Under the pieces are notes generated by a model. It was given only the letters and a program-made list of their open reading frames with translations. It was not told the DNA's origin and did no database searches. The position numbers and the translations under genes were made by a program. Positions 16,848 through 37,298 of a stretch of 64,000 bases of DNA are shown in pieces. The stretch is from [Bacillus] enclensis (GTDB lineage: Bacteria > Bacillota > Bacilli > Bacillales > Bacillaceae_B). The DNA lies in assembly GCF_001456935.1 (NCBI RefSeq), contig NZ_KQ758482.1:1220249-1284248 (forward strand), given 5' to 3'. The first letter of the stretch is position 1; each line of letters begins with the position of its first letter.

Positions 16848-16866
16848 AACGTTCTCTCCCTATCTT

Positions 16867-16988
16867 AAAAGCGGAGGGGCTTTGCTAAGAGGGTGTGGCA
16901 TAAGACGAACCTTCCTAAAAGGCGCTCTTTGCCTTCTTGGATGGTTTGACTTATGACATGTGCCTCTAAGCCCCGCAGCTGGATAATT
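16867..16988. repeat. Repeat B, tandem copy 1
   Basis: About 120 bp, imperfect palindrome: outer arms GGGGCTTTG / TAAGCCCC, then AGAGG / CCTCT, CATAAG / CTTATG, AACC / GGTT and a tip hairpin AAGGCGCTCTTTGCCTT. Nearly the same as copy 3. Confidence 0.85.
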
Positions 16989-17113
16989 TAAAAGCGGAGG
17001 CGGCTCGTTCAGGCCCGACAAGCATAAGATGGATGGGCCATGAAGGCGCTCTTTGCCTTCCTGGTCCATTTAGCTTATGACCTCGAGGGGCTAGCCGCCG
17101 CAGCTGGATAATT
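16989..17113. repeat. Repeat B, tandem copy 2 (divergent, pairing kept)
   Basis: Same architecture as its neighbours but different arm sequences: GGCGGCT pairs with AGCCGCC where copies 1 and 3 use GGGGCTT and AAGCCCC, and TGGATGGGCC pairs with GGTCCATTTA next to the CATAAG/CTTATG stem. Both arms changed together. Confidence 0.85.
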
Positions 17114-17234
17114 TAAAAGCGGAGGGGCTTTGCTAAGAGGCGTGTGGCATAAGACGAACCGGCCTGGAAGGCGCTTTTTGCCTTCTTGGACGGTTTGACT
17201 TATGACATGTGCCTCTAAGCCCCGCAGCTGGATA
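17114..17234. repeat. Repeat B, tandem copy 3
   Basis: Nearly identical to copy 1; joined to copy 2 through the linker GGATAATTTAAAAGCGG, which also joins copies 1 and 2. Confidence 0.85.
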
Positions 17235-20009: not shown

Positions 20010-21816
20010 CTTGGAAGTTTGGCATGGAGAAGGCTCTTGGTCCAAACATCCCTTGACCCATCGGCATACCCTGCCCCGGCATTCCAGGACCATACCCGTA
20101 CGGGGCCTGCATCCCTTGAGGCTGCATTCCATATCCTTTAGGCCCTCCGCATCCGCAGTCACCTTTATCCCAGGCTCCCATCACGCCGGATGGCTGACCC
20201 ATCGGGGATTGCGCTCCCATCACTCCGGACGGCTGACCCATCGGGGATTGTGCTCCCATTACGCCGGACGGCTGACCCATCGGCCATTGTGCTCCCATTA
20301 CGCCGGACGGCTGACCCATAGGAGATTGTGCTCCCATCACTCCGGATGGCTGACCCATCGGGGATTGTGCTCCCATCACTCCGGATGGCTGACCCATCGG
20401 GGATTGTGCTCCCATCACTCCGGACGGCTGACCCATCGGCCATTGTCCCGAAGAAGGTGATTCCTCCATCGCTCCCTGTACCTGTCCCGGCCACATCGGC
20501 TGGCCATGCATACCTCCAGGGAATCCCGATCCAGGCATTACAGGAGATACCGGGTAGCAATTGTCGTAAGGCATCCCTTGCCACGGCCCCTGTGAAGGCA
20601 TTTGAACAGATGGATAGCCATCGCCCTCATCTGAAGCCCCCATCACTCCGTATGGCTGACCCATTGGGCTTTGCGCTCCCATCACTCCGGACGGCTGACC
20701 CATCGGGCTTTGTGCACCCATCACTCCGGACGGCTGACCCATCGGCCATTGTGCACCCATCACTCCGGACGGCTGACCCATCGGGGATTGTGCTCCCATT
20801 ACTCCGGACGGCTGACCCATCGGGGATTGTGCTCCCATCACACCGTATGGCTGACCCATCGGGCTTTGTGCTCCCATAACACCGGACGGCTGACCCATCG
20901 GGCTTTGGTGCTGCGGCATGTAAGGCATCATTGAAGATTCATCATCATCGTAGCCCATTCCTTGCACCATTGGCATTTGCTGCATTCCCGGCATCATAGC
21001 ACCCTGGACCTGACCACCTGGTCCCATCGGCATCCCGTATCCTGGCTGCATTCCATATCCTGGCTGCATTCCCCCATGAGGTCCTCCGAAACCGGATCCA
21101 GGCATGACGGGTGAAACTGGTACGCAATTACTTGGGTTGAAATACATAGGCTGATTGTACCCTCCTTGTGGTTGTGCAGATTGTGCCGGTTGAGCCGGCA
21201 TTTGCAGACTTTCTTCTTCATCATGGATTCCTTTAACTTGATTTTGCTTTGGCATTTCTTTTTTTGGAGATTCTTCTTTGGCTTGTGGAAGAATATTGGA
21301 AGGTTTAGGCGGCATTTTCGGCTGGGCTTTTGGCTGTGGTTTTGGTTTTGCCTGCTGTATCGGTTTCTGCATTGGTTTTTGCATCGGCTTCTGCATCGGC
21401 TGCTGAACCTGCATATTCGCCATATTCATCATGTAATAGTTATTGATATCGATTTCTGGGATGACTGGCTTAGGCATTTTCGGCGTAAACGGCTTCTGTG
21501 CCTCCTTCGGCTTTTCTTTCTTCGGTTCTTCGGCAACTGGCTGGGTGATCGGCTTCTGTTCTTTAAAAGGATGCTCGGCTTTAGGCATCTCTTTTATCGG
21601 CATTTCCTTCTTAGGCGCTTCCTTGGATCCGAACTTTATCTGTGCTTCTTTTTTCACGGATCCGCCTGATGCCGGAACTTTGATTTTCATGCCCGGCATG
21701 ATCATATCAGGGTTCGAAAGCTGGGCATTCATTTGCTTTAACTCTTCGAAATTCACACCGTACTTCTTGGCGATTTTCCAAAGAGTGTCCCCTTTTTGTA
21801 CAATATGGATTTTCAC
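19990..21816 (-). CDS. safA: SafA, LysM spore-coat morphogenetic protein with long tandem repeats
   Basis: 608 residues. A LysM domain at residues 1-47 (KIHIVQKGDTLWKIAKKYGV...MIMPGMKIKVPA) targets it to cortex peptidoglycan. A K/P/E/Q-rich linker follows, with a short repeat KPMQ x4. The C-terminal half is Met-, Pro- and Gly-rich: two blocks of seven 13-residue units of the type SPMGQPSGVMGAQ, each block preceded by a PVSPVMPGSGF segment. SafA interacts with SpoVID (also here) and builds the inner coat in B. subtilis. Start is GTG 21816 after AGGAGGGAAA. Much longer than the 387-residue B. subtilis protein, mainly through the repeats. Confidence 0.93.
   Translation of the reverse strand: MKIHIVQKGDTLWKIAKKYGVNFEELKQMNAQLSNPDMIMPGMKIKVPASGGSVKKEAQIKFGSKEAPKKEMPIKEMPKAEHPFKEQKPITQPVAEEPKKEKPKEAQKPFTPKMPKPVIPEIDINNYYMMNMANMQVQQPMQKPMQKPMQKPIQQAKPKPQPKAQPKMPPKPSNILPQAKEESPKKEMPKQNQVKGIHDEEESLQMPAQPAQSAQPQGGYNQPMYFNPSNCVPVSPVMPGSGFGGPHGGMQPGYGMQPGYGMPMGPGGQVQGAMMPGMQQMPMVQGMGYDDDESSMMPYMPQHQSPMGQPSGVMGAQSPMGQPYGVMGAQSPMGQPSGVMGAQSPMGQPSGVMGAQWPMGQPSGVMGAQSPMGQPSGVMGAQSPMGQPYGVMGASDEGDGYPSVQMPSQGPWQGMPYDNCYPVSPVMPGSGFPGGMHGQPMWPGQVQGAMEESPSSGQWPMGQPSGVMGAQSPMGQPSGVMGAQSPMGQPSGVMGAQSPMGQPSGVMGAQWPMGQPSGVMGAQSPMGQPSGVMGAQSPMGQPSGVMGAWDKGDCGCGGPKGYGMQPQGMQAPYGYGPGMPGQGMPMGQGMFGPRAFSMPNFQDDDLDS
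20180..20452 (-). repeat. safA repeat block 2 (seven 39-bp units)
   Basis: Seven in-frame 39-bp units encoding (S/W)PMGQPSGVMGAQ. Unit 1 and unit 5 begin with W. Codons at third positions differ between units, so the units are not all recent copies. Confidence 0.9.
20640..20914 (-). repeat. safA repeat block 1 (seven 39-bp units)
   Basis: Seven in-frame 39-bp units of the same 13-residue motif, two of them with Y instead of S at position 7. The block is preceded, like block 2, by a NC(V/Y)PVSPVMPGSGF segment and a VQGAM segment, so the two halves look like an internal segmental duplication. Confidence 0.9.
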
Positions 21817-31341: not shown

Positions 31342-31500
31342 TTGGGAATATGCGGGTTGTGGTTGAAGATAAATCGTCTGAGTTGAAAATAAACCTTCTG
31401 GACTTGAAAACAAACCCTCTGGCCTTAAAAATAAACCGATGAAAGTTGAAAATAAATGGTCCGATTAAGGACAAAACCGATGATGTTAGCAGTAAAACTG
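31342..31500. repeat. Phrase array 2: TTGAAAATAAACC phrases at 19-21-bp spacing
   Basis: Phrase TTGAAAATAAA(C) starts at 31363, 31383, 31404, 31425 and 31446, with weaker copies at 31342, 31465 and 31486. Steps: 21, 20, 21, 21, 21, 19, 21. About 8-10 bases between phrases vary. Confidence 0.7.
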
Positions 31501-31580
31501 ACAATATCCGAGAAAAAACAGCTCGAGCCGCTATCCATGAACCCCCGTTATGAATGAATCATCAGTGCCGGGACCGTTAT

Positions 31581-31673
31581 ATTATCAAAAATGGGTCATT
31601 TATTATCAAAAAATCGATTATATTATCAAAAACCAAGGTTTTATTATCAAAAATCCAATTATATTATCAAATC
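31581..31673. repeat. Phrase array 3: five ATTATCAAAAA phrases at 20/21-bp spacing
   Basis: ATTATCAAA starts at 31581, 31602, 31622, 31643 and 31663: steps 21, 20, 21, 20. Four copies read ATTATCAAAAA. The 9-10 bases between them differ. Confidence 0.85.
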
Positions 31674-34498: not shown

Positions 34499-35365
34499 TC
34501 AATAAAGGTAGAGAAGATCCTTCGTTTTGGCATGGGTCATCTTTTCGGCAAAGAATGCATGAAGCAGTTCATATTCATCAAGCTTTCCGACTTCCGTTCC
34601 CTTGTCCAGAACGACAAGCGGATGCTTCACACCCCGTTGAAACCGTTCCACTACCGTTAAAAGAGTATCTTCCCCTTCAATCGGCAGGGGGCGCAGATCA
34701 GCGAACTGATGGCTGTTCCCGTAATATCGCTCGAGCAGGAACTTCATGAAGTTATACCTTCTCTGCTTCCAGTCCATCCACAAGGAAAAATACAGGAATG
34801 AGAGCACGATCCACAGATTTAAATGAAGCGGCGCAATCACCAGTATGGATAAATGAAACAAGATCAGGAGCGCAAAGGAACTAATCAGCGTCATTTCGTA
34901 TGCTTTCAAATAATTAAATTTCAGGGAAAGCAATAAGGAAATCAGCTTTCCGCCGTCCAGTGGCCAGATCGGCAGTAAATTAAAAAGAAGCACCATAAGA
35001 TTCAATTGAAAGAACAGGATGAAAAGATCCCAGCTGATGAAGCTTCCTTTCATCAATAACCATCCAGCACCCACAAGCCAGACATGCTGAAGAGGGCCTG
35101 CCGCAATCACCCAGAACTCCTCGTGAAGGGAACGGTTTCCGTGCTCATCCATCTCAGCCACTCCGCCGAAAGGGAGGAGCGCGATCCGCTTCACCCTCCA
35201 GGAAAAATAGTGAGCTGTCACCCCGTGACCAAGCTCATGAATGGTGATGATCAAAAGAAGCATGATCAGCTCAAGAAAATGAGCCGTCGCTATGCCGATC
35301 GCCATCACAAGCCAGAGCAGCGGGTGAATATAAAGTTTCTTTACTGCCGAAGTTATATTAGTCAA
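34499..35365 (-). CDS. spoIVFB: SpoIVFB, intramembrane metalloprotease for pro-sigma-K
   Basis: 288 residues, site-2 protease family. Zinc site HELGHG near residue 43-48 in the second helix, NLLPIWPLDGGK near 129-140 supplying the Asp ligand, six membrane segments, and a C-terminal CBS-type domain (LPIEGEDTLLTVVERFQRGVKHPLVVLD in part). Cuts pro-sigma-K in the mother cell after the SpoIVB/BofC signal; BofC is also in this window. Start TTG 35365 overlaps spoIVFA. Confidence 0.95.
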   Translation of the reverse strand: MTNITSAVKKLYIHPLLWLVMAIGIATAHFLELIMLLLIITIHELGHGVTAHYFSWRVKRIALLPFGGVAEMDEHGNRSLHEEFWVIAAGPLQHVWLVGAGWLLMKGSFISWDLFILFFQLNLMVLLFNLLPIWPLDGGKLISLLLSLKFNYLKAYEMTLISSFALLILFHLSILVIAPLHLNLWIVLSFLYFSLWMDWKQRRYNFMKFLLERYYGNSHQFADLRPLPIEGEDTLLTVVERFQRGVKHPLVVLDKGTEVGKLDEYELLHAFFAEKMTHAKTKDLLYLY

Positions 35366-36152
35366 ATGATATCACCTGTATCGGGTCGATGAATTCATCA
35401 CCCATTTTGATGGCAAAATAAAATTCCCCGGAGACATCGCTTTCGCCGCTCGTTGAGACTTTCCCGACTGCGGCGCCTTTATCCACATATTCATATTGAT
35501 TGACATCAATCGATTCAAGATGGCCGTACCATGATTCGGACTTATCTTTATGCTGGATGACGACGGTATTCCCCAGCTCATCCTTTTTTCCTGCAAAAAT
35601 GATCAAGCCCCCCTTCATCGCGGCTACATCCTCGCCAAATTCTGTTTCCAGCATGATCCCCTGGCCATTCGTCTTAAAATTCTCAACGACTTTCCCTGCC
35701 ACGGGACGTGCATATTCCTCTGTGCTCACTTCTTCAGAAGATGCGTTCTTTTCCTCCGTGCCGCCGGGCAGCAATGCCAGCGGTTTACCGAACTGCTCTT
35801 CATACCATGAGGAAATGGCGGCGAACTGGAACTCGGTTTCCAGCGTGCGATTGACTACAGTCTTCGCTTCATCAAAAACAGGAGAAGGGCTCTTAAACAT
35901 GATTGCCGTGATCAGCACCATGATGCCTGCGCCGAGGATTTTCATCATGAATGTCTCTTTTTTGAATAATGGATGAAACCCTTCCGGCGGCGGCCCCCCT
36001 TCAAAGCTCGAATATCGCTCTGCCCCATATCGTTCCTCATCACTCGGCAGAAAATAAGAGCTGTTTGAATATCCCCGTTGAGTCGTTGTTTTATTCGTCG
36101 TCCTCTTTCGTTTCGCTATCCGCTTTCTGATTTCATCCGCTCGATTCCCCAT
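35358..36152 (-). CDS. spoIVFA: SpoIVFA, scaffold and inhibitor of SpoIVFB
   Basis: 264 residues. Basic N-terminal cytoplasmic region, one membrane helix (MKILGAGIMVLITAIMF near 93-110), then an outside domain resembling the M23 (LytM) peptidase fold without the usual zinc residues (KDKSESWYGHLESIDVNQYEYVDKG shares the GHL element). Holds SpoIVFB and BofA in a complex and is cut by SpoIVB. ATG 36152 has AAGGA at better spacing than the ATG at 36161. An excellent sigma-E promoter lies upstream. Confidence 0.93.
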   Translation of the reverse strand: MGNRADEIRKRIAKRKRTTNKTTTQRGYSNSSYFLPSDEERYGAERYSSFEGGPPPEGFHPLFKKETFMMKILGAGIMVLITAIMFKSPSPVFDEAKTVVNRTLETEFQFAAISSWYEEQFGKPLALLPGGTEEKNASSEEVSTEEYARPVAGKVVENFKTNGQGIMLETEFGEDVAAMKGGLIIFAGKKDELGNTVVIQHKDKSESWYGHLESIDVNQYEYVDKGAAVGKVSTSGESDVSGEFYFAIKMGDEFIDPIQVISFD

Positions 36153-36222
36153 GAACACCATTCCTTTTTATAAGGTATTAACCGGCCCCGCGCAAAACGA
36201 GCCTGTACTAATCTCATGCTAC

Positions 36223-36251: not shown

Positions 36252-36300
36252 GTGAAATAAGACAAAACAGCGGGGGAATTTGGATCGGGACTGAAGAGTG

Positions 36301-36425
36301 GTGCCTGGCTCAGATTGTCCGGTTTGAGCCAGGCTCGGAACCGGGGTATTGAGCCTGGCTCAAATCAGGGCGTTTGTGCCTGGCTCAAACCATGCCGTTT
36401 GTGCCAGGCACAACAGCATCCCGCT
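36301..36425. repeat. Phrase array 4: five 25-bp units with palindromic cores
   Basis: Units start exactly at 36301, 36326, 36351, 36376 and 36401. Each begins with an 11-bp core: GTGCCTGGCTC, GAGCCAGGCTC, GAGCCTGGCTC, GTGCCTGGCTC, GTGCCAGGCAC, followed by variable bases; units 1, 3 and 4 end in GTTT or TTT and unit 2 in ATT. Cores 2, 3 and 5 are perfect palindromes. Confidence 0.88.
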
Positions 36426-36430
36426 GCAGG

Positions 36431-36477
36431 AAAAATAAAAAAACCCGTCAGTGTCCATTTGGACACTGACGGATTTG
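36431..36477 (-). terminator. Terminator after minD
   Basis: On the minus strand CCGTCAGTGTCC and GGACACTGACGG form a 12-bp stem, followed by GTTTTTTTATTTTTC. Confidence 0.92.
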
Positions 36478-36494: not shown

Positions 36495-37298
36495 TTAAGC
36501 TTTAACACCGAATAGTCTCTTGATTTTAGAGAACATTCCCGGTTTGCTGTCTTCAAGCGATTGAAGAGGGACGGATTCCCCGAGGATGCGCCTCGCGATA
36601 TTCCGGTAGGCAATCGACGCTTTGCTTGTGGAATCGAGCGCAATCGGTTCACCCTTATTGGATGATTTGATGACATTATCGTCATCCGCTACAATCCCCA
36701 GAAGATCGATGGATAAGTGCGCAGTGATTTCGTCTACGTCCAGTGCTTCACCGTTTTTCATCATATGGCTGCGGATGCGGTTGATGATCAATTTAGGTGG
36801 TTCGATTTCCTCTTTTTCAAGAAGCCCGATGATCCGGTCGGCATCACGTACTGCTGAAATCTCAGGGGTTGTGACCACGATGGCACGATCTGCGCCCGCC
36901 ACTGCATTTTTGTAGCCCTGTTCGATCCCCGCCGGGCAGTCGATGATGATATAGTCATAATCCTGTTTCAGGTCCGTCACCAGTTTTTTCATCTGATCGG
37001 GATTCACCGCCGATTTATCGCTGGTCTGTGCGGCAGGGAGAAGGAATAATTTATCCTCGAACCGTTTATCCTTCACAAGCGCCTGGTGGATTTTGCAGCG
37101 GCCTTCCACGACATCGACAAGATCGTAGATGATCCTGTTCTCAAGCCCCATGACAACATCCAGGTTCCTGAGACCGATATCCGTATCGATCAGGCAGACT
37201 TTCTTGCCTTGTAGAGCTAATGCTGTACCAACATTGGCAGAAGTGGTGGTCTTGCCCACTCCACCTTTACCTGAAGTAACAACTATGGCTTCACCCAC
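36495..37298 (-). CDS. minD: Septum site-determining ATPase MinD
   Basis: 267 residues. Deviant Walker A SGKGGVGKTT at residues 9-18, DTDIGLRNLDVVMG near 38-51, and IIIDCPAGIEQG near 116. The C-terminal amphipathic helix MFSKIKRLFGVKA binds the membrane. Recruits MinC to the poles and blocks polar division. Start GTG 37298 after AAAGGAGGAAGC. Immediately follows minC. Confidence 0.97.
   Translation of the reverse strand: MGEAIVVTSGKGGVGKTTTSANVGTALALQGKKVCLIDTDIGLRNLDVVMGLENRIIYDLVDVVEGRCKIHQALVKDKRFEDKLFLLPAAQTSDKSAVNPDQMKKLVTDLKQDYDYIIIDCPAGIEQGYKNAVAGADRAIVVTTPEISAVRDADRIIGLLEKEEIEPPKLIINRIRSHMMKNGEALDVDEITAHLSIDLLGIVADDDNVIKSSNKGEPIALDSTSKASIAYRNIARRILGESVPLQSLEDSKPGMFSKIKRLFGVKA

Follow-up and report, generated by a model that had tools for sequence, protein, structure and literature searches.

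A 25-bp-step palindromic array beside minD in [Bacillus] enclensis and its dispersed family of probable RAYT-associated repeats

The array between minD and the SpoIVFA-like gene

The window is the whole stretch of [Bacillus] enclensis DNA that was analysed, 64 kb long. It contains minD and a SpoIVFA-like gene, both on the - strand, and the gap between them holds an array of short palindromes, downstream of the terminator-like hairpin of minD and upstream of the SpoIVFA-like gene. An earlier note on this DNA had placed the array between minD and the upstream region of the SpoIVFA-like gene, and this location is correct. The features are:

35358..36161, - strand: SpoIVFA-like gene, a neighbour (name from the earlier note and gene order)
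36230: GACTTGTC, in the upstream region of the SpoIVFA-like gene
36268..36426, no strand: possible short outer inverted repeat around the array, CAGCGGG (36268-36274) and CCCGCTG (36420-36426), weak evidence
36301..36411, no strand: array, five palindromic cores of 11 bp, each centred on W, repeated every 25 bp with four differing 14-nt spacers between them, by direct count
36301..36311, no strand: core 1, GTGCCTGGCTC, a hybrid "head" unit at the array edge, with a G before it (GGTGCC)
36326..36336, no strand: core 2, GAGCCAGGCTC, arms complementary
36351..36361, no strand: core 3, GAGCCTGGCTC, arms complementary
36376..36386, no strand: core 4, GTGCCTGGCTC, hybrid arms, in the interior of the array
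36401..36411, no strand: core 5, GTGCCAGGCAC, arms complementary
36441..36476, - strand: intrinsic-terminator-like hairpin after minD, outside the array
36495..37298, - strand: minD (TIGR01968), a neighbour and not part of the element

The five cores have the form G[AT]GCC-W-GGC[AT]C, and their successive starts are exactly 25 bp apart. The pattern GWGCCNGGCWC has five matches in the 64-kb window, every one within the array, while shuffled windows hold 0.14 on average and one at most, with 0 of 100 shuffles reaching five. Direct count and shuffles thus bear out the five evenly spaced 11-bp palindromes first noticed here. No two of the four spacers are alike, and the variation of spacers that was noticed with them also extends to the relative G020, with spacers differing at 23.8% of sites over 12 ortholog pairs. 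The spacer after core 3, AAATCAGGGCGTTT, is the one that is amplified together with GTGCCTGGCTC in G020. The G020 ortholog of core 5 has T at its centre, and the positions of the outer inverted repeat read CGGCGGGG and CCCCGCCG in that genome.

Tandem Repeats Finder scores the array as 2.6 copies. Its folding z is -5.8 as single-stranded DNA, and -9.6 against shuffles for the region as RNA, where the folded stretch includes the minD terminator. A known Rfam RNA was rejected, since none of six matches at E up to 1 came near the gathering score. The matches of the SpoIVFA-like gene in NCBIfam are to M23-type hydrolases and SpoIIQ, all under cut-off. Elsewhere in the window there are a 39-bp repeat of about 19 copies with 71% match (20174-20902), three copies of a 125-bp repeat (16865-17234), and two short arrays side by side with 21-bp and 20-bp units (31362-31671).

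A genome-wide family of arrays

The cores at minD are part of a dispersed repeat population and not a local feature of that site. The [Bacillus] enclensis assembly has 18 contigs and 4.48 Mb. In it the pair pattern GWGCCWGGCWC-N14-GWGCCWGGCWC occurs at 44 places, compared with 0 for the reversed control, and single cores number 110 compared with 4. A sister core, GTACCWGGTAC, forms 19 further 25-bp pairs, again with 0 for the reversed control.

A cluster scan took in 29 stretches around GWGCC pairs and some single cores, plus the window array and the locus L007 (see below); four GTACC-only places (C4:16613, C4:264458, C4:290281 and C5:67497) lie outside it. It returned 30 clusters with two or more cores, 28 of them with a 25-bp step. 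These array counts are lower bounds, since the scanner allows one mismatch per core and misses degenerate units; L007, for one, was not called as an array. Most core-to-core gaps in the 30 clusters are exactly 25 bp (75 of 105), and nine more are 50, 75 or 100 bp. Clusters have two to 11 units, with seven of the 30 having two. The spacers of the 25-bp steps are all distinct (75/75) and have a variable middle, with 67 of the 75 starting with A and 67 finishing with T.

By crude ORF calls, 15 of the 28 arrays are clear of reading frames and 13 overlap one, though 12 of the 13 overlapped ORFs are doubtful frames of 82-112 aa. The gene arrangements around the at least 28 array loci are varied, as far as these little-informative calls go. 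At L149 the array (2233-2335) overlaps a 607-aa open frame at its beginning, and the true start of the frame may be downstream.

Core types, block ends and hybrid units

Three core types, GAGCC, GTGCC and GTACC, are grouped in blocks that often adjoin within one composite array. Hybrid cores (GTGCC-W-GGCTC) with a neighbour 25 bp to the right are at an edge in 20 of 23 cases and interior in three. The outer arm is GTG at 38 edges and GAG at 27, as opposed to 10 and 34 in the interior (p 3e-4), and a G precedes the edge GTG arm in 26 of the 38, giving GGTGCC...GGCACC ends. Exact hybrid units in head orientation have a T centre in 22 of 23 cases, while cores with complementary arms are an A/T mixture.

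The arms match within the core in 79 of 116 cases (shuffle mean 38.5) and across the spacer in 57 of 75 (27.7), both counts being confounded by block homogeneity. The co-variation of the two arms proposed in the earlier note is real, but it arises largely because core sub-families lie in blocks with hybrids at block ends. Of the two window units that the note had called mixed, core 1 is at an edge, like most hybrids, and core 4 is not. A longer conserved stem was considered and dropped, as pairing into the spacers is no greater than in shuffles. The smallest complete element, L148, is an inverted repeat of 38 bp in which 16-bp arms enclose a 6-nt loop, GGTGCCTGGCTC-AAAAGAGGTGTTTT-GAGCCAGGCACC.

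A RAYT gene inside an array

The [Bacillus] enclensis genome has three Y1_Tnp genes. One of them, the RAYT gene C5:18321-18869, encodes 183 aa and is flanked on both sides by 25-bp-step palindromic cores (locus L007). Its neighbours are degV on one side and a comFA-like reading frame on the other, names that we take from B. subtilis gene order and from sequence. The protein matches Pfam Y1_Tnp over cut-off (E 3e-13), NCBIfam REP_Tyr_transpos at 74.8 bits (under the cut-off of 80) and TnpArep, PDB 4er8, at E 3e-4. No domain other than Y1_Tnp was found in it at E up to 1e-3, and it has no HTH tail. Residues N59, H60, H62, Y119, N123 and P124 are invariant across 17 aligned rows. The lineage motifs are NHIH or NHVH, FQ (FE in one of the 17 rows) and Y[IV]HLNP, except in L022, which has YIYLNP.

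The RAYT lineage has a single copy in [Bacillus] enclensis, and the other two Y1 genes have 30-32% identity to it. No such core was found in 3.3 kb around each of these two genes with one mismatch allowed. The second Y1 gene (L005, 1090-1878, - strand) encodes 262 aa, has no arrays and has a weak HTH_23 match below cut-off; the gene just upstream of it is presumably a ComM-like ATPase gene.

RAYT lineage and arrays in relatives

Cores lie beside all 20 RAYT-lineage loci examined, intact or decayed, a lineage that was delimited first by its arrays and checked by tree afterwards. The 15 best-match loci (L008-L022) all have 25-step cores; a looser scan places them on both sides in nine and 3' only in six, and a stricter one on both sides in seven, 3' only in six, 5' only in one and on neither side in one. 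Exact cores are also present at all five decayed copies (L231-L235), which were placed in the lineage by BLAST identity (best stretch 56-68%). Cores of the G[AT]GCC or GTACC type were found at none of 10 clade-2 RAYT loci (L023-L032) and at none of the 25 other Y1 paralog loci examined (L212-L230 and L236-L241). These locus counts leave out further RAYT fragments and paralogs, such as those in G004:C47, G007:C13 and G015:C146:16254. One exception is L094 (R. aquimaris EaN35-1), where a Y1 gene outside the lineage has one GTGCC and one GTACC core upstream, 48 bp apart at about 2290-2340.

The scan for RAYT relatives used the best 80 of 575, and the tree has 59 open-frame rows from L008-L037 and L068-L104. 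The fork that sets off the lineage is moderately supported at 86/92 (13 rows, including two named duplicates), while its halves have 99/98 and 100/96, and clade 2 has 100/100. Identity alone (53-54%) does not separate the lineage from clade 2.

The 61 genomes searched comprise 36 of the genus, of which 27 have GWGCC pairs and 22 have GTACC pairs, and 25 others, of which none has either. We infer that this genus is Rossellomorea; R. aquimaris (L068) and R. vietnamensis (L069) have RAYTs of the array lineage with arrays like those of [Bacillus] enclensis. The RAYT is beside degV at five of 110 loci tested, in [Bacillus] enclensis, G020, G015, G023 and R. aquimaris L068. The search of the genome and of related genomes that the earlier note had proposed thus shows an array with further copies in the genome and counterparts in some close relatives.

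In 19 of 20 cases the core type next to the RAYT is also the dominant core of the genome (Fisher p 0.001, uncorrected for kinship, with flank core types and lineage presence assigned by hand). GTACC pairs dominate in all four genomes with GTACC beside the RAYT, and GWGCC pairs in 15 of 16 with GWGCC beside it, the exception being G016. Genomes with the lineage, intact or decayed, have a median of 31.5 pairs (n=20), compared with 10 in genomes lacking it (n=16, range 0-19). For the GTACC arrays of [Bacillus] enclensis, no GTACC-flanked RAYT was found in that genome.

Other Y1 genes have palindromes of their own. Among the clade-2 RAYTs of genus-mates, 25-step palindromes of other sequence lie at five of 10 loci (three with TCAGCWGCTGA, two with TTACC/TTAAC types), and L030 has TTTAACAGGCAAA-like repeats. 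Related Y1 genes of many Bacillota, and of some other phyla, have palindromes of the GGGGTCWGACCCC or GGGGACWGTCCCC type next to them (L033, L036, L070, L072, L074, L075, L084, L108, L113-L115, L126 and L133). L103, from a Clostridiales MAG, has GTACCAGGTAC cores downstream of a distant RAYT (about 2030-2100), three of them at 22-bp steps, and may be an independent tandem array.

Site history and divergence

The minD site has an array in three of 22 genus members ([Bacillus] enclensis, G020 and G015) and none in 19. The distance from GACTTGTC to the end of minD is 78-88 bp in 14 of the 19 empty sites, compared with 266, 307 and 343 bp in the filled ones; in the other five empty sites the distance is 219-534 bp or the GACTTGTC motif was not found. 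G020 and G015 have tandem copies of one unit at minD, with near-identical spacers. The L148 element is intact in G020, reduced to one core in G015 and missing from 15 of the 17 further genus members that were compared, with stray related cores near its site in G009 and G012.

Recent movement between [Bacillus] enclensis and G020 is not evident, because the 11 G020 array stretches among the matches listed all map to [Bacillus] enclensis loci examined for cores; one of these loci, L161, lacks a 25-step array. Neither excision nor transposition was observed, nor a target-site duplication, which could not be defined because the sites compared, filled and empty, are too diverged.

Orthologs were compared with G020 in 12 pairs, with gapped sites left out and the pair L161/L184 excluded, the [Bacillus] enclensis copy of which has no 25-step array. 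Divergence is 8.3% in cores (52/626), 23.8% in spacers (116/488) and 10.7% in flanks (337/3150), with p 0.07 for cores against flanks. The [Bacillus] enclensis cores were chosen by pattern match, which lowers core divergence by up to half; when doubled, it is still under that of spacers but not under that of flanks, and purifying selection is therefore not claimed. As to whether the cores decay at a neutral rate in relatives, a point raised in the earlier note, their divergence is lower than that of spacers, though not clearly lower than that of flanks.

In the ungapped cores (54 of 64) the ten arm positions together changed at 31 of 540 sites (5.7%). The centre base differs in 18 of these 54 orthologous cores, and all 18 differences are exchanges between A and T, none to G or C. 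The flanks have 52 such exchanges at 1723 A/T sites (p 2e-13 against core centres). Inversion of whole units was considered as the source of these flips and rejected, as adjacent spacers keep their orientation (mean identity 0.76 as is and 0.31 inverted, 14 spacers). Local hairpin opening, template switching or conversion between units could each produce them.

Proposed origin of the arrays

The array is probably a non-autonomous cluster of RAYT-associated palindromic repeats, REP/TIR-like and belonging to the Y1/HuH transposase world, with the RAYT C5:18321-18869 as the likely maker of its copies. This single RAYT, which lies inside a like-built array, would have mobilised the elements and perhaps still does. 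One 25-bp step may consist of one W and one stretch able to form a single-stranded DNA hairpin, such as GGCTC-N14-GAGCC or the core palindrome. By analogy with TnpAREP enzymes, the RAYT would recognise the hairpin on single-stranded DNA and cut and rejoin beside it. The arrays held in common with the closest relative appear to be inherited in place, some of them growing by tandem duplication of the 25-bp unit, and arms would stay alike while spacers drift. An effect on minD or spoIVFA is neither needed nor supported here.

TnpAREP is described as working on single-stranded REP hairpins and cutting at CT, with one enzyme also cutting at CA (PMC8266576). The C-W-G centre fits these dinucleotides, making the palindrome centre a candidate junction with putative cutting between the central C and W. 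Each recurring palindrome type named beside these RAYTs has a C-W-G centre, which for G[AT]GCC and GTACC the search pattern required. Outside the genus, the density of CWG-centred odd palindromes (arms of 5 or more) around Y1 genes is 0.545 per kb within 450 bp, falling to 0.256 per kb beyond 900 bp (p 0.009), while palindromes with other centres are level (1.238 and 1.131 per kb). Loci with a CWG palindrome number 19 of 76 near and 35 of 76 far, the far stretch being more than three times longer. The pattern suggests cutting at the centre and a 25-nt module made up of W plus a hairpin. No GT[AG]G guide at a fixed place was found in 75 spacers, so the known cutting scheme is not directly transferable.

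A more speculative extension, which we hold only tentatively and consider rather doubtful, is that the arrays represent a third, tag-less kind of RAYT repeat. The CWG centre (C-T on one strand, C-A on the other) would be the point of cleavage and joining, the 25-nt hairpin unit would be the mobile, amplifying module, and the exchanges between A and T would be scars of hairpin opening and rejoining. A CWG rule might then apply throughout the subclass 2.1 RAYTs of many Bacillota, with palindromes such as GGGGTCWGACCCC, GGGGACWGTCCCC, TCAGCWGCTGA and GTACCWGGTAC.

Other explanations

The palindromic cores and their fixed spacing could also suggest an operator array, in which a dimeric regulator or nucleoid protein would bind CCWGG-centred palindromes repeated every 25 bp, and the low change of arms (31/540, 5.7%) next to that of spacers (116/488, 23.8%) between close relatives is what such sites might show. 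We consider this very unlikely, as the site is empty in 19 of 22 genus members, the arrays are spread over at least 28 loci with varied gene arrangements, they are tied to one RAYT lineage whose identity the core sequence tracks, and 25 bp does not correspond to an integral number of helical turns. The earlier note had offered binding sites for a dimeric protein or repeated small hairpins; site turnover and the RAYT tie disfavour the former, while conserved arms, fixed step and spacer turnover agree with hairpin-forming sites. RAYT-derived arrays may instead have been taken up by the cell in a secondary role, as RNA hairpins, barriers to transcription or replication, or anchors for gyrase or nucleoid. 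Such use would explain why arms stay alike after insertion, and it is in line with arms changing less than spacers in the 12 ortholog pairs and with the RNA fold (z -9.6 against shuffles, minD terminator included). It is nonetheless unlikely: core divergence of 8.3%, a figure lowered by up to half by pattern selection, is not clearly under the 10.7% of flanks (p 0.07), template switching or conversion can give perfect palindromes without selection, the minD array sits between a terminator and the next gene, and none of the six Rfam matches at E up to 1 is near the gathering score.

Plain tandem slippage from ancestral palindromes, with a RAYT in one array by chance, would fit the way units were amplified at minD in G020 and G015, where the spacers are near-identical. 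It gives no account of dispersal to at least 28 loci or of the tie to the RAYT lineage (20/20 examined loci, 0/25 paralogs), and is highly improbable as the whole explanation. A CRISPR-like or other repeat-spacer memory array is called to mind by short palindromic repeats with 75 distinct spacers out of 75, but is close to inconceivable here. The repeat is 11 bp and the spacer 14 bp, compared with 24-48 bp for CRISPR repeats (PMC3733652). The cores are variable and not near-identical, the spacers are mostly A...T, there are many loci, and the gene inside an array is a RAYT.

Comparison with known systems

RAYTs are the best-known domesticated bacterial transposases, and REP biology is built on GTAG-tagged repeats. 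In the Gram-positive genus described here, RAYT lineages have palindromes of their own, genomes are populated with the core that matches, sites occur both with and without an array, and decayed RAYTs lie next to arrays. The co-evolution of RAYT and repeat, together with a possible rule of cleavage between C and W in the CWG centre, could be tested with oligonucleotides. The RAYT reading also explains a 25-bp pattern that could pass for regulator sites in annotation.

Like members of the RAYT / TnpAREP family, the gene has a Y1_Tnp domain with HuH and Y...NP motifs and is single-copy, not amplified as an IS. The arrays resemble the REPs and REPINs of REPtrons in being dispersed, mostly extragenic short palindromes, with clusters beside a RAYT that is single per lineage (PMC3116915, PMC2817692, PMC8266576). 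They also share a core type that tracks the RAYT lineage and an inverted-pair minimal form (L148). Unlike REPs, the units have no GT[AG]G foot (GTAG in one and GTGG in six of 75 spacers, either strand), and they consist of 5-bp arms around one W, with an apparent preference for strict 25-bp runs over inverted doublets.

BIME units carry GTAG REPs. The BIMEs of enterobacteria are likewise tandem, regularly spaced palindromic clusters, but their units alternate in orientation while those here are near-symmetric (PMC2817692). The MITEs, including bcr1 from Bacillus, are also small dispersed non-coding repeats (PMC3733652), but the arrays here repeat internally every 25 bp, and the gene that goes with them is a Y1 RAYT.

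Also among the nearest known systems are TIRtrons/TIRYTs, RAYT-like genes with TIRs, some of which share GGGGWSAS and some of which are clustered in certain genomes (Di Nocera et al. 2013, PMC3733652), and the subclass 2.1 TnpAY1, for which automatic and manual searches are reported to have ended without REPs (Quentin et al. 2018, PMC6006769). With such RAYT and TIRYT palindromes described (PMC3733652, PMC6006769), the statement in the earlier note that no element of this form was known is too strong. Subclass 2.1 motifs are NHVH or NH[YF]H, W[EQ] or FQ, and YIELNP or Y[IV]HLNP (Table 1, PMC6006769). The RAYT lineage fits them, with NHIH differing at the u position. Both here and there a Y1/HuH gene with NHxH, FQ and Y[IV]HLNP is flanked by GTAG-less palindromic repeats. 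TIRYT and subclass 2.1 proteins have a C-terminal HTH-like domain and a median length of 238 aa (PMC3733652, PMC6006769), while the RAYT here has 183 aa and no HTH tail. The repeats differ too, being tandem 25-bp arrays of 11-bp CWG-centred cores, and the GGGGWSAS TIRs of many, though not all, TIRYTs are replaced by edges that are mostly GGTGCC / GGCACC.

A search of open-access literature did not turn up a published description of this GTAG-less tandem form with its 25-bp step, and for the letters GTGCCTGGCAC, GAGCCTGGCTC and GTACCTGGTAC and the GGGGTC/GGGGAC palindromes the papers listed had only off-topic titles. By term search, the main texts of PMC3733652, PMC6006769 and PMC2817692 do not discuss Bacillus RAYTs, and a passage of a Geobacillus paper lists RayT genes by COG only. 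In our reading the arrays are a variant of RAYT/TIRYT-associated repeats that is tandemly arrayed and has no GTAG, and their transposase falls in a subclass that is reported to have no REPs. They are a little-studied, differently built relative of REP repeats.
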